NCBI GenBank assembly: GCA_017447165.1
Contig: JAFSOD010000004.1
Location: forward strand, 429,267-493,266
Direction: 5' to 3'
Source of the DNA: Bacilli bacterium
GTDB taxonomy: Bacteria; Bacillota_I; Bacilli_A; RFN20; CAG-826
DNA: 64,000 bases
The translations under genes and the position numbers were made by a program. Of this stretch, positions 1 to 21,171 are shown piece after piece. The notes beneath the pieces were generated by a model. It was not told the DNA's origin. It worked only from the letters and a program-made list of their open reading frames with translations, and made no database searches. Position 1 is the stretch's first letter; every line of letters starts with the position of its first letter.

Positions 1-1783
1 TACTTTATTGTCTGCAAAAAATAATCTCTCAGGCGTAGGTATTATTGCCTTTATGAGGCAAGATAGTAAAGAACTAGAAGAGGAAGACTGCTATAAATAC
101 GCTATTAACTTCTCTAGAAGAGAAATTATTCCTTATCGTATTTTAGAAAAGAATAAAAAGATTATCGTTGAAGTGAGATATCCTCGACTACTTAAAGATA
201 TCAATTTATTGATATTAAGAACGCCAAACGCTAAGCCGCTATTAATATCAGACCGCTATAACTCTAAAAACATAGTTACTGATTCAGAAACAAATAAACC
301 AGTCACTATTAATTTAAAGAAAATGGGTAAAGATTTTACTTGGACTACATTAAAACTTAATTTAGGTGCTGGTGTCACTAATAAGAATGACTATCGACTC
401 ATTTTTGAAGATGAAGAAGATGGACTTTTCTATATGCTTGATGACGAAAGTGATTTCACCATTGAAGATCAAAAAGAAAGAGAAAAAGTTATCGCTAGAG
501 AAAACAAAGTTTTCACTAGAACTAAAAAAGTTATTAAATGTCCTTATTGTGGTCAATTAATTCCTAAAAACGTTATCAAAGCCACTAAGGGGTTATATAA
601 ATGTAATGGTGAACAAGTAAATGACTATACTGGCATTAAAGGTATTGGAAATGGTAGAAAAGCCGTTATCTGTTCTAAAAATCTGAAAGAGATTAGCAAC
701 AAGATTATCCAGTGCGATACTTTAATTCTCCCAGATAAAAGCGAAAAACTCCCAACTATGAATATTGCAGTTGCAGGCTATACAAGATGTGGTAAGACCG
801 TGTATTTAGCTAGCATGATTAATATGTTCATGACTGATGAGAAAAAATATGATAGTAATCCCTTTATCTTAAAGACTATCGTTGAAAAATTTTCAAAAAA
901 GAAAGCTAATAAGTCTGTAGAAATGGTGAAGATGCTTGGCTATAACAAGGAAAATGGGGGCATCGACTATTCTCAAGAAGATAGAAGGTCTACAACCCAC
1001 AATACAATTAACATTAAGGGAAGATATACGATTAATGTTGGTCAAGAAATGGAAAGTCACACCGACGCCACTCACGCCGTTCCATTATCTTGGAACCCAA
1101 TTGGTTTTAGACTTGGTGATTTAGGATTTACTTATTTTTATGATGTTCCAGGTGAAGCTTTTATGGCAAAAACGAAAGAACCACTCAGAACATTTAATAT
1201 TGCAGATGGCATTATCGCCATCATTGATGGAGAAAAACTTTCTGCTAGTAGAAGCGCTGGCAAGAAAGCTGATAACGAATCATTAAATCCTATTAATAAT
1301 TTAAAAGATACATTAGAAGCAATCCAGCAATTAGCAGGCAACTCTGTTGATTTAAGCAATGTTCCAATTGCGATTGTCTTTACTAAGCTAGATTTAAAGA
1401 TTTGGCAATATGTTGATAGTGATGATCAAAGTGTGAAGAATAAGTGTTTTGACGATAACTGCCATATTTTAAGAGAAGATATGATTTCCCTATTCCCTAA
1501 GAATAGAAGATATCATGGTTCTGAACTAGAAAGACATATTAACTGCTCTAGTTACGAATTAGAACATTTCTTAAGAAACCTCAATGAAGAAGAAAAAGGC
1601 AAATACGAAGCAATAGTGAAGAAGTATCATAACATTAAATTCTTTGCTTGTAGCTCGGTTGGTAGCGATTCAGTCTTTGAAAGAACCGCTTCTGGAAGCG
1701 GAATTAAACGTCGCCCAAGAAGATTAAGAATCGAACTACCACTTATTTGGCTGATGCATAAAAACGGACTAGTGAGGAACTAA
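1..1783 (+). CDS. Zinc-ribbon GTPase, double-GTPase (DO-GTPase2)-like, 5' partial
   Basis: The reading frame is open to the left window edge, so the gene is probably cut; the first possible start seen is TTG at 8. Counting from there, a four-cysteine zinc ribbon spans about residues 177-221 (CPYCGQ at its start). A P-loop GYTRCGKT follows near 255-262, a DVPG motif (Walker B/G3, DxxG) near 378-381 and TKLD (G4 base-recognition motif) near 458. This order is that of a TRAFAC-type GTPase, not an ATPase. From memory the layout resembles the DO-GTPase2 family of NTPase-centred conflict systems, but I could not run a profile. It is cytoplasmic, with no membrane segment. Only 2 nt separate its stop from the next gene, so the two are surely co-transcribed. 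The GTPase call is firm; the family name is inference. Confidence 0.7.
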   Translation, partial: TLLSAKNNLSGVGIIAFMRQDSKELEEEDCYKYAINFSRREIIPYRILEKNKKIIVEVRYPRLLKDINLLILRTPNAKPLLISDRYNSKNIVTDSETNKPVTINLKKMGKDFTWTTLKLNLGAGVTNKNDYRLIFEDEEDGLFYMLDDESDFTIEDQKEREKVIARENKVFTRTKKVIKCPYCGQLIPKNVIKATKGLYKCNGEQVNDYTGIKGIGNGRKAVICSKNLKEISNKIIQCDTLILPDKSEKLPTMNIAVAGYTRCGKTVYLASMINMFMTDEKKYDSNPFILKTIVEKFSKKKANKSVEMVKMLGYNKENGGIDYSQEDRRSTTHNTINIKGRYTINVGQEMESHTDATHAVPLSWNPIGFRLGDLGFTYFYDVPGEAFMAKTKEPLRTFNIADGIIAIIDGEKLSASRSAGKKADNESLNPINNLKDTLEAIQQLAGNSVDLSNVPIAIVFTKLDLKIWQYVDSDDQSVKNKCFDDNCHILREDMISLFPKNRRYHGSELERHINCSSYELEHFLRNLNEEEKGKYEAIVKKYHNIKFFACSSVGSDSVFERTASGSGIKRRPRRLRIELPLIWLMHKNGLVRN

Positions 1784-1785
1784 TC

Positions 1786-4461
1786 ATGAAGAAGATTATT
1801 GAAGGCATTTTTGGTTTTAAAGGTAATGGCGACTTCCTATTTGCGGAAACCGAATATTTAACTTATGAAGAAAAAGAACTCCTGTCCGCGAACGACTTAT
1901 CTTTTGCTAACCTTGCAAAGGTAGATAAAGAACGCGGCTTAGTTGATGTTGTAACTGAAATTAATGAAGTAACTTGTTCTTATTCATTTAAGAAGATTAA
2001 AGATGGAACTAGACTTTTATTCTGCAAACACAAAAACATCATTCACGACAACTCTGATCGCGGAAGAGTGGAAGTCATTCACTTCCTTAATCTTGATAGT
2101 GATGTTGAAGCAAAAAGTGCATCTTTAAGTGAAGTGCCTGCTATTAAAAGTGACATTAAACAATATGTATTAAGCGAGACAAATTCTTTATTAAAACCAA
2201 TAGAAAAATTAGAAAGTGAAAATGAATTATGCTTTGAAGATTTTATCCGAAATAAAGATCAAATCATCGATATCTTAAATCACATCATTTTTGCGAAAAA
2301 ATCGTCAAAAACCCTATATATTTGTTATAAAATCTCAGAAATTAACCAATTTCATGATGCTTTCTTCAAAGCGTTGAAGTTACTTCCAAAAGAGGTTTCT
2401 AACTCAATTTCCTATGTCTCTTGTTATGGTGGAAGTAGCTCAGATTTATATGACGTTATTGGGGTTGCCATTGAGCCATCTAAGATTAAGGAAATGGACT
2501 TTGAAAGCGATGGAGTTTTACTAAGATTCCCATATTCTGAATATTTGAGCGGCAAAGAAGAAATTATTTCTAATCCTTTACACGAAGTATTAAATTCAAT
2601 ATCTCAAAAACTCGAGTATGCAAGTTTCCAAAGATTCATTAAAAATAATTATCAAGACGAGGCTTCGTTAGAGTCATATTTGAAGTTTGTGGAATTCTAT
2701 CGTTCAATCAATTTTAAAAACGAGTTCGTGGAAAATAAAGAATATCAATTTGTTGTCGCCTTTAATGATTGTTTATCGTTCTATAAAGACAATATTGAAG
2801 TTGTTGAACAATTTGATAAAGACACTTTGATTCATTTATATCAAAATCTAGAAGGCCAAGTTAATTGTTTCTCTAAACTTTTAGATTTAACAGCGGTCGA
2901 TGTCGAAGTTAATAACACGATTAAGCTCTTGTTTGATATCTATAATCTATCTAAAAACATAGACGCGAAAGAAGACTGTATTAATTGGATTTATTCTATC
3001 CTCTTTGACTTTGATTATTCGTTCTCTGACACTAAATACATTTCTATTAGAAGCGATTGGATTGATAAGGCTATTATTAGTGATGAATTATCTGACTTAT
3101 TATTTGCGCATATTTTAAGTAATGATGCCTTATATAACGCTTTTGAAGAGATGAGCGTTGCTTTAACTTCTAATGAAAGCGGTATTCATACTGAACAAGC
3201 TTTATATTCTAAACTTTTCTCTTATTTATTCGCGCGCTACGAATTAGATTCATTAAATAGAACGCGTATCGTAGATGTTGTTGCTAAACATTTAGTTAGT
3301 TTGATTAATGTTGCGGATGTTATCGAACTAATCTTCCAAATCAAAGATGACATTAGGAAATGCTTCTATATTGTTTCTTCAGTTGTTGTCTCTTTAGATG
3401 ATGAAGTGTTAGATGGTTTCTTACATTCTTTAAATAACTACGTCACTAATAATGGATTAATTACTGAAGCATTATTAGAAGTTAGACTTGGTAGTTATTC
3501 TGGCTCTAATAGAGAAAAAGTCTTTAAACTTAAGTCTTATATAATCGATTCTTATATTGGAAAAGATGAAGTTACAACCTATGAAGACTTATTAAGCTAT
3601 GTATTAGCCTTACAAGCCTTTAATGAAAACAAGGTTGTCTTTGAAGAAATCAATAACCGTTTTATCAGCAATCACTTCTCTTCGCTAGCAGTAGACGATT
3701 TTGAAGAATTACCTCTTTCCGCAATTAGAAAAGCAGACCCAAAAAATTTAGAAGTACTTTATGATACGTTCAAAACTCGTCACGAGCCACTTCCAAAAAG
3801 ATTGATTCAATGCATTAAAGACAAAAAAGAAGCGATTGCAGAATATGAAAGAATTAAAGGCAGAGAAAATGAATTAATCGATTTTAGAATTACATTCATT
3901 GTCCGCGCTGTATCCTTGCTTCCTGAAAAAGAATCTCGTGAAATTTGTTATAAATACATCAATAAAGAATTGGCGGATAAATATATCAATCCATCATTAA
4001 ATCTTTCTAGAGAACAATATAGCGAAAATGTTTCTATATTAGCCGATATCTTCCTTCATGAAGTTGAAGAAAAAGACATCATAAATGGTAAGTCAATGGA
4101 TCATTTACGTTTCACGAAAGAAATCATTGAAAGCCAAAACAAGAAAAGATTTAATATTCACACCGTTGCCACTTTAGCGGAATCATTCGCTAATTTGATT
4201 ATCTTTGGTGGTGCTACTTTATTATTAGCCTTTGGCTTAAGTTTACTTTTCTATAATTTTGTCACCAATAAGACATATTTAACTTCTTATATCATCATTT
4301 CGATTGTTGTTGGTGCCTTATCAGGAATTGTTGCCCTTGTAAATGTAAAGAATAAAGGTCGATATAATATATATTTAATATCCACGATTGAGTGTTTGCT
4401 AATGGCGTTAGTAGGTACGGGTTTATTTACCTTACTTGCCTTATTATTTGGAGGTAGATAA
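1786..4461 (+). CDS. Large GAP1-like GTPase-associated protein with C-terminal membrane anchor
   Basis: An 891-residue protein translated from ATG after a GAGGAA ribosome-binding site. The first 100 residues (starting MKKIIEGIFGFKGNGDFLF) contain short strands and a late YSF...RLLF...H pattern that recalls the N-terminal domain of GTPase-associated protein 1 (GAP1-N). A long, mainly helical region with no recognised domain follows. Three hydrophobic helices lie at about 803-825, 835-855 and 865-888. There is no signal peptide, so the bulk should face the cytoplasm with the C terminus in the membrane. Sitting directly behind a GTPase with a 2-nt gap supports a partner or regulator role. The GAP1 assignment rests on pattern memory only and could be wrong; the topology is clear from the sequence. 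Confidence 0.45.
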   Translation: MKKIIEGIFGFKGNGDFLFAETEYLTYEEKELLSANDLSFANLAKVDKERGLVDVVTEINEVTCSYSFKKIKDGTRLLFCKHKNIIHDNSDRGRVEVIHFLNLDSDVEAKSASLSEVPAIKSDIKQYVLSETNSLLKPIEKLESENELCFEDFIRNKDQIIDILNHIIFAKKSSKTLYICYKISEINQFHDAFFKALKLLPKEVSNSISYVSCYGGSSSDLYDVIGVAIEPSKIKEMDFESDGVLLRFPYSEYLSGKEEIISNPLHEVLNSISQKLEYASFQRFIKNNYQDEASLESYLKFVEFYRSINFKNEFVENKEYQFVVAFNDCLSFYKDNIEVVEQFDKDTLIHLYQNLEGQVNCFSKLLDLTAVDVEVNNTIKLLFDIYNLSKNIDAKEDCINWIYSILFDFDYSFSDTKYISIRSDWIDKAIISDELSDLLFAHILSNDALYNAFEEMSVALTSNESGIHTEQALYSKLFSYLFARYELDSLNRTRIVDVVAKHLVSLINVADVIELIFQIKDDIRKCFYIVSSVVVSLDDEVLDGFLHSLNNYVTNNGLITEALLEVRLGSYSGSNREKVFKLKSYIIDSYIGKDEVTTYEDLLSYVLALQAFNENKVVFEEINNRFISNHFSSLAVDDFEELPLSAIRKADPKNLEVLYDTFKTRHEPLPKRLIQCIKDKKEAIAEYERIKGRENELIDFRITFIVRAVSLLPEKESREICYKYINKELADKYINPSLNLSREQYSENVSILADIFLHEVEEKDIINGKSMDHLRFTKEIIESQNKKRFNIHTVATLAESFANLIIFGGATLLLAFGLSLLFYNFVTNKTYLTSYIIISIVVGALSGIVALVNVKNKGRYNIYLISTIECLLMALVGTGLFTLLALLFGGR

Positions 4462-4463
4462 TT

Positions 4464-7400
4464 ATGAGAACTAGTTTTAAAAATTCACCTTTAAAAATAT
4501 TCGCTGTGTCGGGGGTTATAGTAACACTATCAGCGTTAGTGTTTGGTTTAGTTGGAGGTATTTATTTCTCTACTAAAAAGAATGGTTCATCTATGGGTAC
4601 TATTCCTTTTGGTGAATCTATCACCTTATCAGATTTTGCTAAGCAACAAGATATATCTTCTCCATGGATCAAAAACGGGACATTCTCTATTGAAACTGAA
4701 ATGGAAGTAGTTGATGGATCCAGAGTCATTGTTCCTAATGTTGTCACCGTGGATAAAGTGAATAAGAGTATACGCTTTAACGGAGTGGGTAAAGGAAAGA
4801 TGACTTTATACTACTCACTTGATAAATCAATTTATTACACCTTAGATTTTGCTTCTGATTTTAGAAACACTAAGCTAACTGAATTATTAATGGAACAATG
4901 CCCTGCCTTCTTTGAAGATGGGTTCCTTGATTTAGAAGAGATTAATGAAATAGAAAACATTAGAATTCATGATGTTAATACTTTCTTAGGAGAAGACTTA
5001 GGATATTTCTTAAATTTAAAATCTATCTCCTTAGACTCTGAAAGTGTTATTAAGATGAGCCATTTGACTTTGCAGTCCTCTACAAAAATCTATGTCCCTA
5101 AAGATTTATATGGAGATTATATGGCCTCAGAAGGCTATTCGGCATTTACCGATAACATTTTTCCATCAAAACCATCTGAATCATATCAGGTCATCGTCTT
5201 ATATAAAAATGGGGGAAAGATGGATGGTTCTTGGGATGAAGAATATGATAGTTTTGAAGTGACAACTGGAAGTTATTTTGACGACTTACCAGATGCAAGA
5301 TCAATATCTAAACGCGGAAGTACTTTCGTTGGATGGTTTGATAAAAATAATGTTGAGTACACAGTAAACACTCCTATTGTTAAGGATGTCAAACTTTACG
5401 CAAGATGGTCAATTAATGAATATCGAGTTACCTATCATATTGAAAAGCCTAGCGGTGAATTTGATGTAGACTACGACTCCTATTATTTAGACGACGATTT
5501 AGACATTCGCGATATTGAAACTAGCTATGATACATCAGATCGAAAATTTATTGGTTGGGCATACGCTAATGATGCGACAATCGTTGACTTTGGACCTCTA
5601 TATCATGAGGATGGATATTTTGACGGAATTAAGCAAGGATTTGATTTATATGCCGTTTTTGCCCATAAAAACGTAGAAATTACTATATTTAATAAGACAA
5701 CGCCAGTATTAGAAACAACTTGTTCTTATGGCAATTCTTTTATCTTGAAATATGCCGGTTCAGAGCCTTCAGGTGAAGGTAAATTCATCGGTTATTCTAG
5801 AAGCGAGACTGCTCGAACTAAGGAATATGATGATAATACCCAAATGCTTTTAAGATATAATCCTGAAAATCCAGAAGATCTGACATCTTTGTATCGCACT
5901 ACAAAACAAGATAATAAGTTACTTTTCTACTGTGTCTTCAATGATGTTAATAGTTATTCGATTTTCTATAACTACACTAATGCTAATGAAGTATCTTCTA
6001 CATTAGCCCAAACTCATAAAGATTATGATGATGAATCCTCCGGAAACTTAATTGCGGGTAGAGAAGTTAGATTAAGAAGTCCAGATTCAATGTACTTTGA
6101 TGAGGTAAATAACATTGATAAGGTTGGAAAACACTTTGTTGGATGGCTAAGAATTATGGATAATAAAGAGTATCTCTACACCAACTTATCTAGTGTCCCT
6201 GGTTTTGGTGGAACGATAGTACCTCTTGGAGATTATTGGCTTGATAATGGATTTTATCCATCTGGAGAAGTAGAAAATGTCGAACTATCTCCATACTATG
6301 TTTTAAATAAGATTAATATTGAATATATAAAGCCTACTGAAGATACAGAGGCCCCAAGCAATCAAATAATTAATTATGGTACAGAGTTAAAACATAGTGT
6401 CTTTAAAAAGGCTGGAAAAGAATATACAAAATTAAGAATCTCATCCAATAGTTTAGATATAGAAGATTTTGATGTTTCAACAAGCATGACCTCTATCAGC
6501 GCTGACAAGATGAAGGAATTTTATCAAGCCGCAATGGTAAAGAATAATATTTCTAGAAATCAAAATGCGGACGGAATGACTATTTCTATTGAACCTTTAT
6601 TTACTGATACAATCTATACTATTACGTTTAATGCAAATGGTGGTAGTCCAACTCCAGCAAGTCAAACCCACAAATACGGCGAAAAGGTTACAAAACCATC
6701 TTTTACTCCAAGCAAAACCGATTACACCTTCGTTTACTGGTATATTAGTTCGGGTTCAGAATTGAACTTTAGTACCTACACTGTGTATTGTGACGTCACT
6801 ATTTATGCTGCGTATAATAAGAATCCTGGCTGCTTAATAGAAGGAACTTCGATTTCTTTATTTGATAATACATTTAAAAATATTGAAGATGTTCAAGTAG
6901 GTGATTTAGTTAAAACTTGGAGTTTCTTAGAAGGTGATTTTGCTTATGAACCTGTTATAGCGATTGAAAGTGGTTATACTTGTTCCATCGCAGTTCATTT
7001 GCGTTTCGCTAACGGCAAAGAAGAAACTATTATTGAATCGCATGCCTTCTTTGATTATACAAGAATGGAATATGTGAATATTTCAACAGACAATTATCTA
7101 GATTATGTTGGAGACCTGTTCTTCTTTGAAGACGGTGTATCTGAACTTAATTCATCTGAATTAACTCTTTATGAAGGAAGTTATTATTTCTTGATAACCG
7201 CTCATAATATGAATAGTTTTGCTAACGGAGCCTTAAATATTGTATATGAAGTTAATTTCATGACATGTATTTCTTCAATTAATGATATGAAATTCGATTT
7301 AGAAGAACTAAATAGTTATATCGATATATATGGACTAGCGAACTATGAGGATTATTCCTTCTTAGTGGATGAATATACATTTGATGCATTTAATGGAGAA

Positions 7401-7475
7401 TACTTAAATATTCTTATTGGTAGAGATATTATTTCTATTGAAATGATCGCTGAATATTTACAAATGATTAGTTAA
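4464..7475 (+). CDS. Membrane-tethered InlB-repeat protein with C-terminal Hint (intein-like) domain
   Basis: A 1003-residue protein with SD GGAGG before ATG. One N-terminal helix (about 13-35) acts as an uncleaved anchor, placing the rest outside. Residues ~125-225 look like a BspA-type leucine-rich segment. InlB/Listeria-Bacteroides repeats follow: ~234-316 ending KLYARW, a weaker one at ~317-400, and ~722-783 starting YTITFNANGG. A Hint domain begins at Cys790 (CLIEGTSISLFDN, then IEDVQVGDLVKTW), with a histidine block at ESHAFF (His860) and a closing block TAHNMNSFANGALN near 912-925. About 78 residues follow the Hint core as a possible C-terminal extein. Hint domains self-cleave or splice at the leading cysteine, so this protein may be processed. 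Its membership in a GTPase operon is unusual. Confidence 0.7.
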   Translation: MRTSFKNSPLKIFAVSGVIVTLSALVFGLVGGIYFSTKKNGSSMGTIPFGESITLSDFAKQQDISSPWIKNGTFSIETEMEVVDGSRVIVPNVVTVDKVNKSIRFNGVGKGKMTLYYSLDKSIYYTLDFASDFRNTKLTELLMEQCPAFFEDGFLDLEEINEIENIRIHDVNTFLGEDLGYFLNLKSISLDSESVIKMSHLTLQSSTKIYVPKDLYGDYMASEGYSAFTDNIFPSKPSESYQVIVLYKNGGKMDGSWDEEYDSFEVTTGSYFDDLPDARSISKRGSTFVGWFDKNNVEYTVNTPIVKDVKLYARWSINEYRVTYHIEKPSGEFDVDYDSYYLDDDLDIRDIETSYDTSDRKFIGWAYANDATIVDFGPLYHEDGYFDGIKQGFDLYAVFAHKNVEITIFNKTTPVLETTCSYGNSFILKYAGSEPSGEGKFIGYSRSETARTKEYDDNTQMLLRYNPENPEDLTSLYRTTKQDNKLLFYCVFNDVNSYSIFYNYTNANEVSSTLAQTHKDYDDESSGNLIAGREVRLRSPDSMYFDEVNNIDKVGKHFVGWLRIMDNKEYLYTNLSSVPGFGGTIVPLGDYWLDNGFYPSGEVENVELSPYYVLNKINIEYIKPTEDTEAPSNQIINYGTELKHSVFKKAGKEYTKLRISSNSLDIEDFDVSTSMTSISADKMKEFYQAAMVKNNISRNQNADGMTISIEPLFTDTIYTITFNANGGSPTPASQTHKYGEKVTKPSFTPSKTDYTFVYWYISSGSELNFSTYTVYCDVTIYAAYNKNPGCLIEGTSISLFDNTFKNIEDVQVGDLVKTWSFLEGDFAYEPVIAIESGYTCSIAVHLRFANGKEETIIESHAFFDYTRMEYVNISTDNYLDYVGDLFFFEDGVSELNSSELTLYEGSYYFLITAHNMNSFANGALNIVYEVNFMTCISSINDMKFDLEELNSYIDIYGLANYEDYSFLVDEYTFDAFNGEYLNILIGRDIISIEMIAEYLQMIS

Positions 7476-7476
7476 T

Positions 7477-8484
7477 ATGAGAATTGAACTTACTAATAAC
7501 AATTGGTTTTATGAAGCGTATTTAAGCGGGAAATATCTCGAATTATATCAACAAGCAATTAATAACTTGTCTCGAGGTTCTTTTGTGGCTTCCGTAAGGA
7601 TGGAATACGATGAATCTAATTTTAATAACAATATGAAAAATGTCGTACAAGCGATTATTTGTGGTCACCCTGAATTATTCTTCATTAATCCTCAAGTTTC
7701 TATTCAGTATCATAATGGAGAAGCAGAGTTAATTTTTGAATCATTATATGATAAAAAAGAATTAGAAGATCATTATGACTATCTTTTAAAAAAGATAGAT
7801 GAAGTAGTGGAGCAATTAAAAGAACAAGAAGATGAAGTGTCAATAATATACGCTTTAAATGATTATTTATGCTTGAACTTCACTGGAGAAAATGACTATT
7901 CAAATGATAATGGTAATGCTTATGGTGTCTTTAAAGAAGGCTATGCTCGATGTGAAGGGTTCTGTAAAATTGCCAAACTAGTCTTAGATAGATTCAATAT
8001 TGATAACATCATTTGTACTGGCCAAGTTGAAAATGAAGGAAATGATTATCCTCATGCTTGGCTCGCTATTAGGCACAATGATATATATTACGGATTTGAT
8101 TTTAGCTTTAACTGCAGTGCTTCTATTCCTAACTGTCCTTGTAGAGCTTATTCGTTTTTAAATAACGAATTTTTATATGTTGGTAGAACCCAAGACTATT
8201 CTTATCCAATCACCGATGATGATTCGATGCTATTTTGGAATCAACATAATGGAGAAACTTATAATCTTAGAGATTTAGGAAACGCAGATATCATTGAATT
8301 TAGAAATAATTATTTCTCCATTCACCATTTAGATCTCAATATAGAAATTGGGACATATCAAATCGATTATGAGATCCCTGATTGGATTATCGAGAACTTA
8401 TCTCCTTATAGTTATGGGCATACATTTGATTATCGATATCTTGATAAACTTAATTCTTTGGTTGTTTATTACATCAACGACTAG
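7477..8484 (+). CDS. Cytoplasmic transglutaminase-like protease-fold protein
   Basis: A 335-residue protein beginning one base after the previous stop codon. The second half is a transglutaminase-like (papain-fold) core: GYARCEGFCK with Cys159, YPHAWLAI with His193 and GFDFSFN with Asp208, a complete Cys-His-Asp triad at the usual spacing. Such enzymes cross-link, deamidate or hydrolyse amide bonds. The N-terminal ~110 residues (including HPELFFINPQ) match the region that commonly precedes this core in Firmicutes proteins. There is no signal peptide or membrane helix, so unlike many relatives it should stay in the cytoplasm. It is the last gene of the operon and is followed by a strong terminator. 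Substrate unknown; the GTPase, the membrane protein or the Hint protein are natural guesses. Confidence 0.7.
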   Translation: MRIELTNNNWFYEAYLSGKYLELYQQAINNLSRGSFVASVRMEYDESNFNNNMKNVVQAIICGHPELFFINPQVSIQYHNGEAELIFESLYDKKELEDHYDYLLKKIDEVVEQLKEQEDEVSIIYALNDYLCLNFTGENDYSNDNGNAYGVFKEGYARCEGFCKIAKLVLDRFNIDNIICTGQVENEGNDYPHAWLAIRHNDIYYGFDFSFNCSASIPNCPCRAYSFLNNEFLYVGRTQDYSYPITDDDSMLFWNQHNGETYNLRDLGNADIIEFRNNYFSIHHLDLNIEIGTYQIDYEIPDWIIENLSPYSYGHTFDYRYLDKLNSLVVYYIND

Positions 8485-8509
8485 TCATATACTAAAATTT
8501 AAATAATAA

Positions 8510-8541
8510 AAAGGCCACTACTTAATAGGTGGCCTTTATTG
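8510..8541 (+). terminator. Intrinsic terminator of the GTPase operon
   Basis: A perfect 9-bp stem AAAGGCCAC/GTGGCCTTT (8510-8518 with 8529-8537) is followed by a T-rich run. It lies 25 bp after the transglutaminase stop codon and closes the four-gene operon. Confidence 0.85.
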
Positions 8542-8546
8542 TTTCT

Positions 8547-8574
8547 TTTATAAATAAAAGATTAGCGATATAAT
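8547..8574 (+). promoter_or_regulatory. Sigma-A-type promoter for the first K+ channel gene
   Basis: TTTATA (8547-8552), a 16-nt spacer and a consensus TATAAT (8569-8574). The gene's SD sequence TAGGAG follows about 15 nt later. Confidence 0.6.
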
Positions 8575-8602
8575 TTGTTTATGCTTTTAGGAGAATAGAA
8601 TT

Positions 8603-9529
8603 ATGGGAGAAACAAAAAGAAAGAAGAATGCCTTTTATTATTTAGGCTTTATTAGTGGTATTTTAGCGATTATAAGCTGCATTGTTACGATTGGTTTATC
8701 CGTCAGTGATTTATATGTTTCTGTTTACACTTTATCCACCGCACTTTTATTCTTAGGGATTAATCGTGTTGGATTACATTTAAGCAATTTTAAAGAAAAT
8801 TTGTTTGAGAATATTTTCTTAACAGTAATTATCTTTTTATTAGCGATATTGGTGGGTTTAACAAAATATAGTATTTATTGCCTTATTACCGCTTTATTCT
8901 TATATTCATTAACAATTATTATTAATTGTTTAGTGAAAATGAAGAAAGATCGTTCAGTCCAATCAATCATTTTTAATTGTTTAAGTATTACCCTAGCATT
9001 CTTATTCTCTTTTGTATTTTTCTTCCCAGCAATTTATGCGAAACACGCGACTTCGGTTAGTAATTCTAACTTCATTATTTTATGTTTTGCAGTCACAATT
9101 ATTGTCTCTAGTAGTAAGAACTTATTATTCCCATATCATACCGCTTTAAAACTTAATGTCATTCAAAAAATCATCAAAAAATCATTAGTTAATGAAATTA
9201 TAATGGGCTTATTAATTTTAGTGGTCTTGTGTTCAGTATATTTCACAGTAGTAGAACCAAATATAACTAGTTATGTTGATGCGCTTTGGTATTCATTTGC
9301 AGTTATCACCACGATTGGCTTTGGCGACGTCTACGTTACGACTACTTTTGGAAGAATCCTATCAGTTATTTTAGGAATAAGCGGCATTGTTGTTGTCGCT
9401 TTATTCACTTCATTTATTGTTAACTTCTATAATGAAATGAATCGGAAAAGAGAAGAAAGAACTCTTCAAAATCTAATTGAAAAGGCGAAAGAGCTTGAAG
9501 AGTTAGAAGAGAAAGATAAAGGCCAATAG
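8603..9529 (+). CDS. Potassium channel family protein (two-pore-helix filter TIGFGD)
   Basis: A 308-residue membrane protein. Six hydrophobic segments in the first ~190 residues precede a classic pore unit: a helix near 197-215, a pore loop with selectivity filter TIGFGD starting at Thr237, and a last helix near 250-272. A charged, probably coiled-coil cytoplasmic tail of about 35 residues ends the protein. The filter identifies a K+-selective Ion_trans_2 channel. The TATAAT promoter and SD TAGGAG just upstream support the ATG. The product at 20248-21171 is a close paralogue of the same length that ends its pore unit with the same residues (IVNFYNE). No RCK/TrkA domain is present, so ligand gating is not evident. 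Confidence 0.85.
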   Translation: MGETKRKKNAFYYLGFISGILAIISCIVTIGLSVSDLYVSVYTLSTALLFLGINRVGLHLSNFKENLFENIFLTVIIFLLAILVGLTKYSIYCLITALFLYSLTIIINCLVKMKKDRSVQSIIFNCLSITLAFLFSFVFFFPAIYAKHATSVSNSNFIILCFAVTIIVSSSKNLLFPYHTALKLNVIQKIIKKSLVNEIIMGLLILVVLCSVYFTVVEPNITSYVDALWYSFAVITTIGFGDVYVTTTFGRILSVILGISGIVVVALFTSFIVNFYNEMNRKREERTLQNLIEKAKELEELEEKDKGQ

Positions 9530-9545
9530 TGGCCCAATGATTTTT
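9520..9545 (+). terminator. Possible weak terminator overlapping the channel stop codon
   Basis: GGCCA (9520-9524) pairs with TGGCC (9529-9533) around the stop codon, and a T-run begins 8 nt later. The short stem and delayed T-run make this uncertain. Confidence 0.35.
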
Positions 9546-9580
9546 GTATTATATATAAAATGTGATAAAGTATAACCGCA

Positions 9581-10597
9581 ATGAATAAAAAACATTTGTT
9601 TACGTTTTTAGTCCCTAATTACGGATACCACAAATATTTATTTGAGTGCTTTGATTCCTTAGTTAATCAAAAAACTTCAGATGAATTTGAATACGATATT
9701 TTAGTGTGTGATCAAAGTGATTTAGAAGTGTATGAAAAAATAAAAAAAGACACATTTAGTAAATACGGCAATCGAATCTCATTTATTCATAACGACATCA
9801 AAGGCGTTTTAAGAGCAAGACACACTTTGGTTAGAGAGGCAAAAGGAGAATATTGCATCTTTGTTGATAGCGATGACTTTGTAGATCTTGATTATTTATA
9901 TGTCATTTATGAGAACTTAAAGAAACATAATTTCCCAGATATCCTTATTCACAACTTCATCAAATGTCATGAAGATGGAAAAGATGATCCGGGATTATAC
10001 ACCCCATTTGTGTGTGATGATAAATATTTAATGGATTATTTTATCTACTCCAACTTTTTTAATGAAGTTGTTCGTAAAGCCTTTAGAAGAAACTTATATG
10101 TGGTGGATGATAAAGTGGACATGGAAAGTGTAATTTGTGATGATTGGCTTTTATCCTTCCCGCTTATGATGAAAGCGAAAAATATTGTCTATGTTCCAGA
10201 GATTCAAAAATATCATTACCGTATGAATTCTAGTTCTCTTACACACACTGTAAAATTTGAAGAAGCAATGAAAAACCTTGCAGTTCACGACCAATATTTA
10301 TCAAATTTAACTCCAAATAGCCTTCAAAAGAAAATCTTCGACTCACAGATCGCTATGACTTATGTCGCTTTAGGAGATATGTTAATTCGAGACAAGAGTT
10401 TAACATCCAAACAGTTTAAAGAATTCTGCAATAACGCCAGAGATCATCTTTACGATATCGATGTAAATGATACCGAATTATATGAGATGAGCAAGAACCA
10501 TAAGAAAATTTATAAGCTATTAAAAAAGAATGCTTATAGGCGTTTGAAGCTCATATTTAAGATAAGAAAACTAGTGACATACTCCCACCACTTATAG
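9581..10597 (+). CDS. GT2 family glycosyltransferase, 3' end replaced by IS sequence
   Basis: A 338-residue GT-A fold glycosyltransferase, family 2. The start LVPNYGYHKYLFECFDSL and the DSDD metal/nucleotide motif near residues 95-98 are typical. It probably adds a sugar to the surface polysaccharide made by this locus. The last eight residues (VTYSHHL and neighbours) are encoded by the right end of the IS200/IS605 element, which also supplies the stop codon (10595-10597). Without the element the frame would run from KIRKL into the sequence at ~12328 and stop within a few codons, just before the terminator at 12349. So only the extreme C terminus was changed and the enzyme is probably still active. 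No SD sequence is visible; -10-like boxes lie at 9554-9559 and 9571-9576. Confidence 0.8.
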   Translation: MNKKHLFTFLVPNYGYHKYLFECFDSLVNQKTSDEFEYDILVCDQSDLEVYEKIKKDTFSKYGNRISFIHNDIKGVLRARHTLVREAKGEYCIFVDSDDFVDLDYLYVIYENLKKHNFPDILIHNFIKCHEDGKDDPGLYTPFVCDDKYLMDYFIYSNFFNEVVRKAFRRNLYVVDDKVDMESVICDDWLLSFPLMMKAKNIVYVPEIQKYHYRMNSSSLTHTVKFEEAMKNLAVHDQYLSNLTPNSLQKKIFDSQIAMTYVALGDMLIRDKSLTSKQFKEFCNNARDHLYDIDVNDTELYEMSKNHKKIYKLLKKNAYRRLKLIFKIRKLVTYSHHL

Positions 10598-10740
10598 AAG
10601 TGGGGGCTTCTTGCTCGATGACTCTAATGAGCCAAGCATAAACAAGCTATCCGGATGTGTCCCATCCTTAGTAAGTATTTCAATTCCCTTACGTAGAATA
10701 TTTTTAGCTGCGTTTATATCTCGATCATGGACCATTCCAC
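10573..10740 (-). ncRNA. Candidate omega RNA of TnpB (right-end RNA)
   Basis: In TnpB elements a guide RNA is made from the 3' end of tnpB through the right-end hairpin, with the guide taken from flanking DNA. Here the tnpB stop codon lies inside the right-end hairpin, so scaffold and gene overlap as in known cases. The guide would be the flank at about 10552-10572 (minus strand), which is glycosyltransferase gene sequence. Position is inferred from the family, not measured. Confidence 0.35.
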
Positions 10741-11749
10741 AGTTTGGACAAGTCCATTTTCTTACTCTTAAATCTTTAGTGAGAGGATTTTGATAATTGC
10801 AGTAACTGCATAATTGACTACTAGGATAATTAGTAGGAACTTTAACTATAGTGTTCCCGTACCAACTAGCCTTATAAATAAGCATAGAAACAAATCTAGA
10901 CCAGCTCGCATCAGAAATACTTCTAGCGAGTTTAGAGTTTCTAGTCATATTTTTCACTTTCAAATCTTCGATACATATGATTTGGTTTTCATCAATGATG
11001 TGCCTAGATAATTTATGTAAATAGTCATTACGTTGGTTTTCAATTTTCTTGTGTAATCTAGCGACTTTAATTCTTTGTTTGCTACGGTTTTGACTGCCTT
11101 TTTTCATTAGAGACAATTTTCTTTGTTCTCTAGAAAGTTTATTTTGTGACTTAGTTAAGTATTTATGGTTTTTATATTTATTCCCGTTAGAGTCGATAAT
11201 TAGCTCTTTAATTCCTAAGTCTAGTCCAATCGCATTATCTTGGATATTAATACATTCATGGTGTTCTTCAACTAATAAAGAAATATAGTACTTCTCATCA
11301 GTGGTTTTACTAACTGTAATAGATTTAATTTCACCATAAAAACCTCGATGTTTCTTAATTCTAAGTCGAGGGCATTTAGGAATCGATATATAACGGTCAT
11401 TATTAGAAAACCTCACACCTCCCTGATTATTAGTGGTGTAGCTTTGATCATTCCTTTTAGATTTATATTTAGGAAAATTGTTTTGCTTTTTATAAAACGA
11501 TTTAAAAGCCGCGTTTCTTGCTAATTGAGCGTTACATAATGCTAGAGAATCAACTTCTTTTAAAAATGGATGATCCTTCTTATATGTAGCAGGGGTGATA
11601 TTTTTTGATCTACCGGTGGATTTATATAACTCACACATGTCAGAAAGAGACTTATTATAGAAAAACCTTACGCATCCAAAAACTCTAGAGAAGTATTCCT
11701 TCTGCATAGAGTTAGGATAGATACGATATTTATAAGCTTTTCTAATCAT
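10592..11749 (-). CDS. tnpB: TnpB RNA-guided nuclease (IS605 OrfB)
   Basis: A 385-residue TnpB with the full RuvC-like active site: Asp177 in GLDLGIKEL, Glu261 in ICIEDLKV and Asp344 in HDRDINAAKN. A zinc finger with Cys314, Cys317, Cys334 and Cys337 sits between the last two. These nucleases, the ancestors of Cas12, cut the empty donor site to retain the transposon. Length and motifs are normal, so it should be functional. The last residues (KKPPLL) are encoded by the right-end hairpin. It starts with ATG 31 nt after tnpA and is read from the minus strand. Plus-strand reading frames opposite it are shadows. Confidence 0.93.
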   Translation of the reverse strand: MIRKAYKYRIYPNSMQKEYFSRVFGCVRFFYNKSLSDMCELYKSTGRSKNITPATYKKDHPFLKEVDSLALCNAQLARNAAFKSFYKKQNNFPKYKSKRNDQSYTTNNQGGVRFSNNDRYISIPKCPRLRIKKHRGFYGEIKSITVSKTTDEKYYISLLVEEHHECINIQDNAIGLDLGIKELIIDSNGNKYKNHKYLTKSQNKLSREQRKLSLMKKGSQNRSKQRIKVARLHKKIENQRNDYLHKLSRHIIDENQIICIEDLKVKNMTRNSKLARSISDASWSRFVSMLIYKASWYGNTIVKVPTNYPSSQLCSYCNYQNPLTKDLRVRKWTCPNCGMVHDRDINAAKNILRKGIEILTKDGTHPDSLFMLGSLESSSKKPPLL

Positions 11750-11780
11750 ATTCCCCTTTCTTTAAGGAGAACAGTGACTA

Positions 11781-12176
11781 TTATTCTCCTTGAGATTCGA
11801 TATATTTCTTGATTGCCTCAATATTAGCCCCACCTGTAGAGATAAGACAGAAAGACTGAGACCAAAACGCTTCTTTATATAATCTAGATCTAATAGAAGG
11901 ATATTCTTTCTTTATTAATCTAGAAGAAGCAGACTTATAAGCATTGATAAACTTAGAGATATTAGAATTTGGTTCACTTCTAAATAAAATGTGAACGTGA
12001 TCTAAATCAAAGTTCATTTCTTCAAGAGCAATATTATAATTACCTTGAATATTCTCAAATATCCCTTTTAACCTTTCAGATATTTCATCATTTATCACCT
12101 TTTTACGATATTTAACTACCAAGATTAGATGAAAATGAATCGCGAATACTGAATGGTTATTACTCCTCAATTCCAC
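11781..12176 (-). CDS. tnpA: TnpA Y1 (HUH) transposase of IS200/IS605 family
   Basis: A 131-residue single-strand DNA transposase. The HUH metal motif is His60-Val-His62 in LDHVHILF, and the catalytic tyrosine is Tyr125 in KKYIESQGE. The N-terminal HFHLILVVKYRKKV block is typical of the family. It would recognise the hairpins at the two ends of the element and move it through a single-stranded circle. The protein looks complete, slightly at the short end of the family range. It is transcribed on the minus strand ahead of tnpB. Confidence 0.93.
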   Translation of the reverse strand: MELRSNNHSVFAIHFHLILVVKYRKKVINDEISERLKGIFENIQGNYNIALEEMNFDLDHVHILFRSEPNSNISKFINAYKSASSRLIKKEYPSIRSRLYKEAFWSQSFCLISTGGANIEAIKKYIESQGE

Positions 12177-12266
12177 AACTATATTATATCATTATTTATA
12201 ATTATATAAAAGTATATAGTGACTTATTTTTGTACTTATTACGACTGAATGTAATAATTGCAATTC

Positions 12267-12326
12267 ATCCCCCACCTATAGAAGTATCCATCAATTTAAC
12301 AAATTGCTGTGGGGGACTTCTTGCTT
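12267..12326 (-). repeat. Left-end subterminal hairpin of the IS200/IS605 element
   Basis: An 8-bp perfect stem TCCCCCAC/GTGGGGGA with a 33-nt loop, followed by CTTCTTGC. The right end has a similar but shorter hairpin next to the same octamer. It lies 90 bp upstream of tnpA and is the expected TnpA binding and cleavage region. Confidence 0.65.
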
Positions 12327-12348
12327 ATATACGTTAAAGTAAAGGTAG

Positions 12349-12372
12349 AAGCCCACTCTGTGGGTTTTTTCT
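12349..12372 (+). terminator. Intrinsic terminator, probably of the interrupted glycosyltransferase
   Basis: AAGCCCAC/GTGGGTTT stem (12349-12367, tri-nucleotide loop) running into a T-run. It lies just outside the IS left end. With the IS removed it would sit right behind the glycosyltransferase gene that now ends at 10597. Confidence 0.8.
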
Positions 12373-12406
12373 TTTGTAAAATAGTGGTACGATTATCATT
12401 GGCGAT

Positions 12407-13318
12407 ATGAAAATCCAAATCTTATTATCAACATATAACGGTCGCAAGTTCCTAAAAGAACAAATTGATAGCCTATACTCATTAGACAATATCAAGGATA
12501 TTAGTATTTTAGTACGTGATGACGGCTCTAATGATGGCACTCAAGATATTTTGGAAGAATACAAAAAGAACAACAAAAATTTCTCTTGGTATCAAGGTGA
12601 GAATAAAGGTCCAGCTAGAAGCTTCTGGGAACTTTTAAATAAGGCTAGTGGAGCAGACTATTATGCTTTTTGCGACCAAGATGATGTTTGGGAAAAAGAT
12701 AAATTAGTGGTCGCTGTTAACGCGCTTGAACTATTTGATAAGACAAAACCACTTCTTTATATGGGAGATGTCCATGTGGTGGACGGTGAACTCAATCATA
12801 AGGCAGATGGATTTGTCGACACTAATGTTCCAATTAATTACCCTTGTTCTTTATCTAACTCTGTTTGTCCTGGATGTACATTTGTTTTCAATGAGTTAGC
12901 AAGAAAATTGGCGACTAAGTTCAATGCTGAAGAATATATTGATCATCATGATTGGACTTTATATAAGATAGTGGTTTGTTTTGGCACTGTTATCTTAGAT
13001 AAAACCACTCATATGCATTATCGCCAACACGAGAATAACGTTATAGGAGCAAAAACTAAGCTTGGAAAATATTGGGATATGATTTTTAAAAAACCTAGAG
13101 ATCCTAAATTCATTCACCAAAGATTAAGAAATGCTCAAGCTTTAGAAAAGTACTATGGAGAAGAGATGAGTGAAGAAAATAAATATCTCACTCACTTAAT
13201 TGCCCACTACACTGAAGATAAAAAAATTAAGAAAGCTCTTTTGAAAGAAAAGAGATTTAAATATTCCAAGATGCAATTCGCGTATTTCAAATATTTAGTG
13301 AGGATTAACAAATTATGA
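12407..13318 (+). CDS. GT2 glycosyltransferase, rhamnosyltransferase-like
   Basis: A 303-residue family 2 glycosyltransferase. ILLSTYNGRKFLKEQI opens the GT-A fold, followed by RDDGSNDGT (nucleotide binding, ~44-52) and CDQDDVWEKDK (~90-100), a signature of putative rhamnosyltransferases in dTDP-rhamnose loci. It stands just upstream of rfbACDB, which make that donor. No SD sequence precedes the ATG; a TATCAT -10-like box ends only 7 nt before it. The stop codon TGA overlaps the ATGATG start of the next gene, so the two are translationally coupled. Confidence 0.85.
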   Translation: MKIQILLSTYNGRKFLKEQIDSLYSLDNIKDISILVRDDGSNDGTQDILEEYKKNNKNFSWYQGENKGPARSFWELLNKASGADYYAFCDQDDVWEKDKLVVAVNALELFDKTKPLLYMGDVHVVDGELNHKADGFVDTNVPINYPCSLSNSVCPGCTFVFNELARKLATKFNAEEYIDHHDWTLYKIVVCFGTVILDKTTHMHYRQHENNVIGAKTKLGKYWDMIFKKPRDPKFIHQRLRNAQALEKYYGEEMSEENKYLTHLIAHYTEDKKIKKALLKEKRFKYSKMQFAYFKYLVRINKL

Positions 13319-14175
13319 TGATTGTCGATATTGTTTGTCCGATTTATAAAAATTATGAACAGTTAGTAAGTCTATACGATGCACTTAATAAACAAGTGGA
13401 TGTAAAGATTAATAAATTTGTTTTTCCTATGACTATTTCTGATGATGAAGAAATCAATAACAAAATTAGAGAGTTTATCAAAGATAAAAAGATTATTTGT
13501 TTTGAGGTTACTAAAGAAGAATTCTCGCATTCATTAACTAGAGAAAAGGCGATTAAAGAGTACTGCGAAAGCGAATTAGTTATTTTATGTTCTCAGGATG
13601 TTGTGTTCTTTGATCAACACGCAATTAACAAATTAGCCTCATCTATTAATGATGAAGTTATCTATGCTTATGGTAAACAAATTTGTAAAAACCATTCCAT
13701 AGAAAGATACATTCGTAAGAAGAATTATCCAAAAGTTGGATATGTTGTTTCTAAAGATGATATAGAAAGAATGCAGCTTATGGCGTTTTTCGCAAGCGAT
13801 GCATTTTCTTGTTTATCAAGAAAACATTTCTTAGAATTAAATGGCTATCAGGGTTATGATGTGATGTTTGCGGAGGATATGCTTTATTCAAAATTTGTTT
13901 TGGATGCGGGATATAAAAAAGCTTATGTCGCTGAAGCAGTAGTGGCACACTCTCACAAATATAAACTTAAGCAGTTATATAATCGTTATTATGAAACCGG
14001 TAAGTTCCATAAAGAAATCGGATTATTCAATCAGTATAAAAGCACTGATTCCGGTATGAAACTCGCGTTCTATGTCTTAGGACAAGCATTAATACACTTT
14101 AACATCCCTGTCTTATTCAGGTGGTTACCTGATATGGCAGCGAGATATCTCGGTATGAGGAAAGGAAAAAAATAG
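13315..14175 (+). CDS. GT2 glycosyltransferase of the rhamnan locus
   Basis: A 286-residue glycosyltransferase with the start [14 protein letters not shown] and a degenerate aspartate motif (CSQDVVFFD, ~102-110). The block [20 protein letters not shown] is characteristic of a group of bacterial rhamnosyltransferases. Its ATGATG start overlaps the previous TGA, and the stop lies just before rfbA, so it belongs to the rhamnose operon. It probably transfers rhamnose or the next sugar on the lipid-linked repeat at the cytoplasmic face. The acceptor cannot be read from sequence. Confidence 0.8.
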
Positions 14176-20247: not shown

Positions 20248-21171
20248 ATGGCAGAAAAAGCAAAAAAGAAATTTGTCTTAGATCATGATATTGTGAGAAT
20301 CATTCTCATTATTTTAGGTAGCATTTTTTCCACTTTAGTTTTAGCGTTTTCTATTTTTGCCATCAATGAAATCCAAGGCGGCAATATGGATGCGGCTAGT
20401 AAATATTTACTAGTTATCTTCATTATCCAAGGCTTATCTAGACTTGTGACGTTCTTTGTAGAAAGAACTAAACTTAACTTTATTAGATTTGCTTCATTAT
20501 TTTTACTTAATGTCGTTTTAGGCCTTATTATTTTATTTGGTAAAGAGAATCCTTATTTCTTCTCTTTAGTTGGTGGGCTTTATTGTACTTCCATTATTAT
20601 TTCTCGTATTTTCAAGTTGGTACAAAACCACTCGACAAGAAGCATTATCCTTAACGGTATTATTATTGTTTTTGCGATCTTGCTTTCTATTGGTTTATTC
20701 ATCCCATATGAGATGGAAAAGGTTGCTAACCCAGTTATTATTCTTTGCACTTTAATCGCGGTTTCTGCTTTCTTAGAAGTTATTTCCACTGCGACTAATA
20801 GATTAAAATTAAGAGTCTTATTTAAGATTATTGTGAGAACCTACGCTTTAGAGATTATCTTAGGCTTAGTTACCATTATGGTAGGTTTCTCTTTATTACT
20901 AGCGATTTATGAACCTGAGATTCCAACGTTCTCTGACGGCTTATGGCATTCATTCGCTACAGTGACCACAATCGGATTTGGTGATTTTAAAGTCGTTACC
21001 GCAGTAGGAAGAGCCTTAACTGCGATTATGGGTATTTACGGTATTGTCGTTGTCGCGGTTATTACTTCTATTATCGTTAACTTCTATAATGAGACGACCG
21101 GAAAAAAAGATAAAGACGAATTCAAGGACATCTCTGAAGAAGAAGCTCAAAGCAAAAAGAAGAAAAAATAA
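20248..21171 (+). CDS. Potassium channel family protein, paralogue of 8603-9529
   Basis: A 307-residue membrane protein with six hydrophobic segments followed by a pore unit whose filter TIGFGD starts at Thr241. A helix ending in VVAVITSIIVNFYNE closes the pore, and a lysine-rich tail ends the protein. It has the same architecture and length as the product at 8603-9529. The SD is GAGGTAAAG. The gene ends in a hairpin shared with the convergent acyltransferase gene. Gating is unknown. Confidence 0.85.
   Translation: MAEKAKKKFVLDHDIVRIILIILGSIFSTLVLAFSIFAINEIQGGNMDAASKYLLVIFIIQGLSRLVTFFVERTKLNFIRFASLFLLNVVLGLIILFGKENPYFFSLVGGLYCTSIIISRIFKLVQNHSTRSIILNGIIIVFAILLSIGLFIPYEMEKVANPVIILCTLIAVSAFLEVISTATNRLKLRVLFKIIVRTYALEIILGLVTIMVGFSLLLAIYEPEIPTFSDGLWHSFATVTTIGFGDFKVVTAVGRALTAIMGIYGIVVVAVITSIIVNFYNETTGKKDKDEFKDISEEEAQSKKKKK

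Follow-up and report, generated by a model that had tools for sequence, protein, structure and literature searches.

A nine-gene operon of gut Bacilli and Clostridia encoding a DO-GTPase, a GAP1-like protein, a ClpB-like AAA+ protein and an NrdG-like radical SAM protein: a candidate variant of GTPase-centric conflict systems

The left edge of the analysed DNA (64,000 nucleotides, G000:C4:429267-493266 of a 1.3-Mb genome; the window) cuts through a GTPase gene that is closely followed by genes for a membrane protein, a surface protein and a transglutaminase-fold protein. The combination raises the question of how far the unit extends and what it might do. The original prediction took these genes as a four-gene operon carrying a signal across the membrane, in either direction, to protein cleavage or cross-linking.

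Extent, conservation and distribution of the operon

Reading of 14 kb to the left of the window (L002 coordinates) gave an operon of nine co-directional genes, A to I, which starts 7.5 kb left of the window (Table 1). Genes A to E run into F with overlaps or gaps of -8 to +3 nt, F starts 287 nt left of window base 1, and the intergenic gaps F-G, G-H and H-I are 2, 2 and 1 nt. The sole convincing terminator of the operon lies 3' of I. The tight spacing and single terminator of the proposed four-gene operon were borne out, but the unit has nine genes and not four; the expectation that more genes might lie beyond the left edge was correct, as five (A to E) were found there. A, E and F are the best-conserved components, and two of them, A and E, lie outside the window and were not part of the four-gene view.

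Upstream of A, about 690 nt without a long ORF are followed by an oppositely oriented gene. The stretch before A (L002:6045-6732) resembles a broken coding sequence, with short open stretches and stops, and may be a decayed gene. Left of the operon, L002:2110-6041 and L002:1123-2043 hold two DUF1292 genes, a RyR-domain gene (1e-35) and genes whose products are a membrane protein of 850 aa and a protein of 306 aa, the latter resembling one encoded beside the G325 operon (L038:8181-9101). Downstream in the window, adjacent minus-strand genes between glycosyltransferase genes (10592-12176) read by eye as IS200/IS605-type TnpB and TnpA, and two similar ion-channel-like genes with a TxGFGD selectivity filter are present at 8603-9529 (matching Ion_trans_2) and 20248-21171.

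Table 1. Features of the operon and their positions in the L002 and window coordinates.
Feature	L002	Window	Strand	Evidence
Gene A, ClpB-like AAA+	6733-9030		same as F-I	
Gene B, small protein	9034-9576		same as F-I	
Gene C, zinc protein	9573-11477		same as F-I	
Gene D, coiled coil	11479-13386		same as F-I	
Gene E, NrdG-like radical SAM	13386-13988		same as F-I	
Gene F, DO-GTPase2, 689 aa	13981-16050	<1-1783 (3' part)	+	Pfam, motifs
Gene G, GAP1-like, C-terminal TM helices, 891 aa		1786-4461	+	family GAP1-M, TM prediction
Gene H, InlB/Hint surface protein, 1003 aa		4464-7475	+	Pfam Flg_new, TM prediction
Hint domain of H		6831-7283	+	PDB Hint structures via family profile, alignment, Pfam
Gene I, transglutaminase-fold protein, 335 aa		7477-8484	+	Transglut_core, PDB 9crn, triad
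Intrinsic terminator closing the operon		8510-8537	+	10-pair stem and T-rich tail

Genes A to I occurred in identical order in G000, G009, G085, G605, G606 and G607 (in G605 the E frame was detected by profile; G607 is split, with A to H on one contig and the end of H plus I on another), and G608 carried A to H without I. The order of the window operon thus recurs in six other genomes of two classes, one of them lacking I. Where genomes with the operon are named, they are metagenome bins from Bacilli and Clostridia, and the gene order is shared by distantly related gut bacteria. Chance adjacency was rejected, as seven loci share the order. Relative to the window proteins, identity ranged from 15-19% (G) through 23-25% (H), 30-34% (I) and 34-41% (F) to 47-55% (E); such low identity (about 15-55%) with constant order indicates that the order outlived much of the sequence. 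The original prediction had named missing profile matches together with missing linkage as grounds against itself; profile matches were obtained (see below) and the homologues were kept together in these seven loci, the first subtype.

A second subtype, ordered I-A-B-C-D-E-F-G-X-H with X a small anchored protein, was found in G023, G325, G091 and G650, and partially in G048 (contig end). Profile comparison linked the subtypes for A, E, F, H and I and more weakly for D and C, with no link for B or G; in the second subtype, B was accordingly assigned from its place, and G from its place together with its C-terminal TM helices. When 15 genomes were searched with the I profile, the top six matches were the six first-subtype I genes. 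The distribution of the operon is patchy: F was found in 4 of 115 relatives (own genome included), yet shares about 40% identity with Clostridia. Relatives of F were absent from 50,697 phage records, 72,556 plasmids and IMG/VR, unlike relatives of A and E, which occur on plasmids.

Predicted components

Gene A carries one AAA_2 module (Pfam, 4.9e-44), its closest PDB relatives are ClpE, ClpC and ClpB (about 1e-47 to 1e-51), and 11/11 homologues carry both Walker motifs (A and B), the TSN of sensor-1 and a GYVG pore loop. These features mark A as a predicted single-module ClpB/ClpC-type AAA+ protein. Identification as the ClpB disaggregase was rejected (one AAA_2 module against two; 211.9 bits against an equivalog cut-off of 1232.1). 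Proteins B and C had no family match in profile searches. Zinc-ribbon-type cysteines, three of them invariant, are present in C, and D, a coiled coil judged from its sequence, starts with MSGPK in 6/7 first-subtype loci; one D matched EAD11 at 0.0045.

Gene E encodes a radical SAM protein (Fer4_12, 3e-28; CX3CX2C) that is NrdG-like at 1e-25. It resembles NrdG in its radical SAM core, CX3CX2C, size, and GGEP and lVDGPf..LRGSsNQ regions, and differs from NrdG in scoring below the equivalog cut-off (90.5 against 126.1 bits), in falling outside the NrdG clade in trees, and in belonging to an operon without NrdD. By its motifs and placement E is an intact NrdG-like radical SAM enzyme and not NrdG. 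E proteins of GTPase and kinase loci were grouped in the tree (93/93), apart from NrdG (99/98); a single origin of E-like enzymes across phyla was unsupported (46/50). Identification of E as a viperin (pVip) was rejected (19.5 against an equivalog cut-off of 180 bits). The glycyl-radical motif [RK]VxG[FWYM], looked for as the mark of a partner, was absent from all operon proteins.

Protein F matched Pfam DO-GTPase2 at 2.4e-7 (31.1 bits, above the cut-off of 27), as did 8/8 F homologues at their own scores. In the window, its zinc-ribbon Cys start at 539, followed by P-loop GYTRCGKT (776-799), DVPGE (1142-1156) and TKLD (1382-1393); DVPGE, the four Cys and TK.D were invariant in the family alignment. 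F is, as far as its motifs tell, a complete GTPase with a zinc ribbon, in agreement with the cytoplasmic zinc-ribbon GTPase of DO type that had been predicted.

GAP1-M was matched in 6/8 members of the G family (best 1.4e-4). The window G protein alone had no GAP1 match in Pfam, and GAP1-N was absent from all 8 members searched. C-terminal TM helices were predicted for G. The predicted tail-anchored GAP1-like partner therefore held for the C-terminal TM helices and for the family, in which a GAP1-related protein with such helices is supported, but not for the window protein by itself. Profile comparison of the window G family, both with second-subtype G and with one GAP1-N2 protein, did not reach significance, and only its position and TM layout assign second-subtype G to GAP1. 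Predicted structures of G (pLDDT 62.8) and C (pLDDT 63.6) gave no significant match in fold searches, and no claim is built on either model.

Protein H has a single N-terminal TM helix in 7/7 members (anchor at about residues 12-30), predicted extracellular InlB/List_Bact repeats (Pfam Flg_new, 2.8e-17), and a C-terminal Hint domain with a conserved tail. The Hint domain matched PDB structures 6tmm and 6y75 at about 1e-11 by family profile, and Pfam Hint in 6/7 members; it begins with Cys790 and has a block-B His at 860, and this Cys and His were invariant in the alignment (8/8). Self-cleaving Hint domains of hedgehog type have an N-terminal Cys and a TxxH block; the Thr of TxxH (-3 of the His) was absent from the window H and most members. 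A self-splicing intein, or a BIL with C-terminal cleavage, was rejected because the C-terminal His-Asn is absent. H varied most among the genes: first-subtype loci and G829 combine InlB repeats with Hint, G023, G048, G325 and G091 have Gly-rich repeats in place of Hint, and G650 has an InlB-like protein as far as the stretch covered extends (the end of the protein lies outside it). Wherever a GTPase-type locus could be followed to its end, H was present. The extracellular protein with a self-cleaving type of domain thus held for the anchor, the Hint domain and its Cys1 and His, but obligatory cleavage is disfavoured by the missing TxxH Thr, the missing His-Asn and the loss of the domain, with Gly-rich substitutes, from most second-subtype loci.

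Protein I matched Pfam Transglut_core at 6.7e-4 (20.4 bits, just below the cut-off of 23), and its family profile matched PDB 9crn at 7e-13. Its triad, Cys159 (at 7951), His193 (at 8053) and Asp208 (at 8098), was invariant in 5/5 aligned members, which characterises I as a predicted transglutaminase-fold protein with a Cys-His-Asp triad. Neither a signal peptide nor a TM helix was predicted. In the G650 homologue (L051:2690-3724) a Ser (GVSAG) occupies the position of the catalytic Cys, and this protein may be inactive or a serine version. Cytosolic proteolysis by I appears likelier than surface cross-linking, which is disfavoured by the absence of an export signal and by a bifidobacterial counterpart presumed to be a cysteine protease (PMC8430577). 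Of the complete Cys-His-Asp transglutaminase in the original prediction, fold and triad stood, and cross-linking, an activity that sequence tests do not separate from proteolysis, found no support, given the missing signal peptide and the Ser of G650. Three Clostridia loci (L041:7397-8725; L043:6119-7336; L101:4213-5655) share a gene after I with an HExEH zinc-peptidase-like motif, and a TraD-like coupling ATPase is encoded further along in L043 and, by sequence likeness, in L041.

Exchanged partners, proposed function and rival readings

Around F, G and H, the other genes varied between loci. In G077, genes for FtsK-like ATPase, TIR-LRR and Band-7 proteins came after F-G-H, and in G829 trypsin and RuvB-like AAA+ genes stood ahead of F-G-X-H; I was missing from both. 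I-type genes occurred also in HSP70/DnaJ-FNIII/DO-GTPase2/GAP1-N2-type loci (G727, G068), and I-family genes in G104 and G107 lay beside genes that read by eye as kinase, vWA and PP2C. Flanking TIR genes were present at three operons (G085, G325 and, with two such genes, G023), and RyR-domain genes near those of G000 and G085. The output slot appears to be exchanged (transglutaminase fold, trypsin, TIR) around a common F-G-H core. A constant core with exchanged effectors is a criterion for conflict systems (Kaur et al. 2020, PMC7159879), and by that criterion the pattern supports a conflict-system reading; that the locus is a conflict-type system with a GTPase switch is considered quite probable.

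Genes A and E were also found without DO-GTPase, in Cyanobacteria and Proteobacteria, usually with a D-like coiled coil and with kinase-FHA, helicase-PIN or GTPase genes as partners. The G075 locus comprises a kinase-like gene, genes for an MSGPK protein and a zinc-ribbon/FHA-like protein, E and A. On an Aristaeella plasmid the genes are DUF4011, kinase, MSGPK protein, FHA, E, A and phosphatase; on a Rhizobium plasmid they are A, E, one for an AAA-domain protein of 2086 aa and one for an MSGPK protein. Plasmids of Photobacterium, Leisingera, Acinetobacter, Moellerella and Polaromonas carry genes for AAA-domain and PIN proteins and for a third protein, of about 370 aa and without the MSGPK start, together with A and E. 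On a Geminocystis plasmid, E, three small GTPase-like P-loop proteins, an MSGSPK protein and A adjoin an anti-phage dCTP deaminase. The five-gene unit of the proteobacterial plasmids (L119-L123) lies near integrases or ArdA and resembles an undescribed defence-type unit. In P. aeruginosa, the right flank of core defence hotspot cDHS1 consists of genes for a radical SAM protein and for DUF4011 (PMC10250203).

All ORFs above 100 aa that start with MSGPK in the 1.12 Mb examined sit in E-bearing loci, a link that is suggestive and not a genome-wide statistic, since most of this DNA was chosen for F, E or A. The MSGPK N-terminus is common to hard-to-align proteins beside the radical SAM gene (L108:9188-10546, L114:12001-13293, L116:13910-14584, L002:11479-13386), and is possibly a target or docking motif. 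Tentatively, and at somewhat less than even confidence, A and E, usually with coiled-coil D, are proposed as a core of bacterial defence that is widespread and has gone unrecognised. This core would be a device for unfolding proteins, licensed by the radical SAM enzyme, to which various switches (DO-GTPase/GAP1, kinase-FHA, helicase, small GTPases) and outputs (transglutaminase-fold protease, PIN) would be coupled.

In the scheme proposed for the whole operon, H, through its variable outer part, would sense an event at the surface, and G would relay the signal from H to the GTPase F. F in the GTP-bound state would gather C and D (B too) and the AAA+ motor A, which would pull apart or remodel a held protein and thereby free or feed the cytosolic protease-like I. 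As output, I would cleave one or a few proteins, and the struck cell would be arrested or die. E may modify a partner, perhaps the coiled coil D with its frequent MSGPK start, as a licensing step. About even chances are given to this reading as a whole, in which the operon is a conflict (self-protection) system anchored in the membrane and dependent on NTP, a DO-GTPase/GAP1 variant working along H-G-F-A-I. Counted in its favour, besides the conserved gene order, the DO-GTPase2 and GAP1-M matches and the exchanged outputs, are the I-type genes of G727 and G068, the TIR and RyR genes nearby, the dCTP deaminase beside A and E in Geminocystis, and the patchy distribution. Against it stand the missing GAP1 match of the window G, the missing GAP1-N, FNIII and GASH, the unlinked G of the two subtypes, the missing close PADLOC match, and the fact that the locus has no known connection with phage.

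The same genes could instead serve surface-protein maturation or envelope homeostasis, with A, the GTPase/GAP1 pair and I placing, processing or turning over H (and X), E and Hint taking part in maturation, and no role against invaders. The constant presence of H in the GTPase-type loci whose ends were reached and the predicted membrane anchoring of G are consistent with such a role, and Hint can be a maturation domain. The patchy distribution, the TIR, trypsin and PIN proteins in the output slot of related loci, and the occurrence of A and E without any H argue against it, and it is considered unlikely.

Action of E on the anaerobic ribonucleotide reductase NrdD of the host, whether as an activator or as a block that deprives an invader of dNTPs, with the remaining genes as a switch controlling E, is very unlikely. 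The likeness of E to NrdG and the presence of NrdD in the genome are in its favour, and dNTP depletion is a known anti-phage strategy. E is, however, below the NrdG cut-off and outside the NrdG clade, an NrdG2-type gene lies about 1 kb from NrdD in the host genome, and E travels with A and D and not with NrdD; a role as host reductase activase was disfavoured on these grounds. The original prediction taken literally, an outside-in or inside-out signal that ends in Hint cleavage at the surface and transglutaminase cross-linking, is likewise very unlikely, as the intact triad of I and the Hint fold with Cys1 and block-B His stand against the lack of an export signal in I, the missing TxxH Thr and C-terminal HN of Hint, and the Gly-rich H of G023, G048, G325 and G091, of which G023, G325 and G091 retain I before A.

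If the conflict-system reading is true, the locus offers a route to test the sensing and firing of such systems, and a role for radical SAM enzymes in bacterial defence beyond viperins would follow.

Relation to known systems

No close model was present in PADLOC, where only generic AAA+ and radical SAM matches were obtained, and searches of open-access main texts gave no such operon; an experimental study of DO-GTPase/GAP1 systems was not found in the literature searched. The AAA+/radical-SAM module of the operon is apparently undescribed.

The bifidobacterial PFNA cluster (pkb2, fn3, aaa-atp, duf58, tgm; PMC8430577), compared by its description, resembles the operon in combining a transglutaminase-like protein and an AAA ATPase in a signalling operon. 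It differs in having a kinase and FN3 and not GTPase/GAP1, in a TGM described as transmembrane, and in listed genes that do not include radical SAM. The HSP70-theme GAP1-N2 system (G727, G068) is similar in uniting DO-GTPase2, GAP1 and an I-type gene in one locus, and has HSP70 and a DnaJ-FNIII protein in place of A to E.

GTPase-centric conflict systems built on DO-GTPase and GAP1 were described by Kaur, Burroughs, Iyer and Aravind (2020, PMC7159879). Their DO-GTPases have a conserved Walker-B Glu and often a zinc ribbon, GAP1 (GAP1-N, -M, -C) is encoded downstream, and the GAP1-N2 systems follow three themes (tubulin, HSP70/GrpE, protein kinase); that text mentions radical SAM solely in connection with FtsH systems, and transglutaminase solely with VMAP systems (PMC7159879). 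The operon shares with these systems a DO-GTPase2 with zinc ribbon and Walker-B Glu, a downstream protein with C-terminal TM helices that is, judged from its family, probably of GAP1 type, the membrane location, and exchanged partners and peptidases. Recognisable GAP1-N, FNIII or GASH is absent from it. In Pfam searches its proteins matched neither GAP1-N2 nor FNIII, nor the domains of the GAP1-N1 subtype (GAP1-N1, GASH, two DO-GTPases), and it has a single GTPase. It differs further in its ClpB-like AAA+ protein, NrdG-like radical SAM protein, anchored InlB/Hint or Gly-rich protein and transglutaminase-fold protein.

By its core pair the operon would belong with the DO-GTPase/GAP1 systems, outside both described subtypes and the tubulin, HSP70 and kinase themes. 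Since the core pair appears to be shared, the tested subtype features are missing and the open-access texts searched hold no description, it is counted as a new version of these systems. They are a predicted immune-like network, to which the locus brings two further conserved components, an unfoldase and a radical enzyme, pointing to an AAA+/radical-SAM pair common to Bacillota, Cyanobacteria and Proteobacteria, with conjugative plasmids among its carriers.
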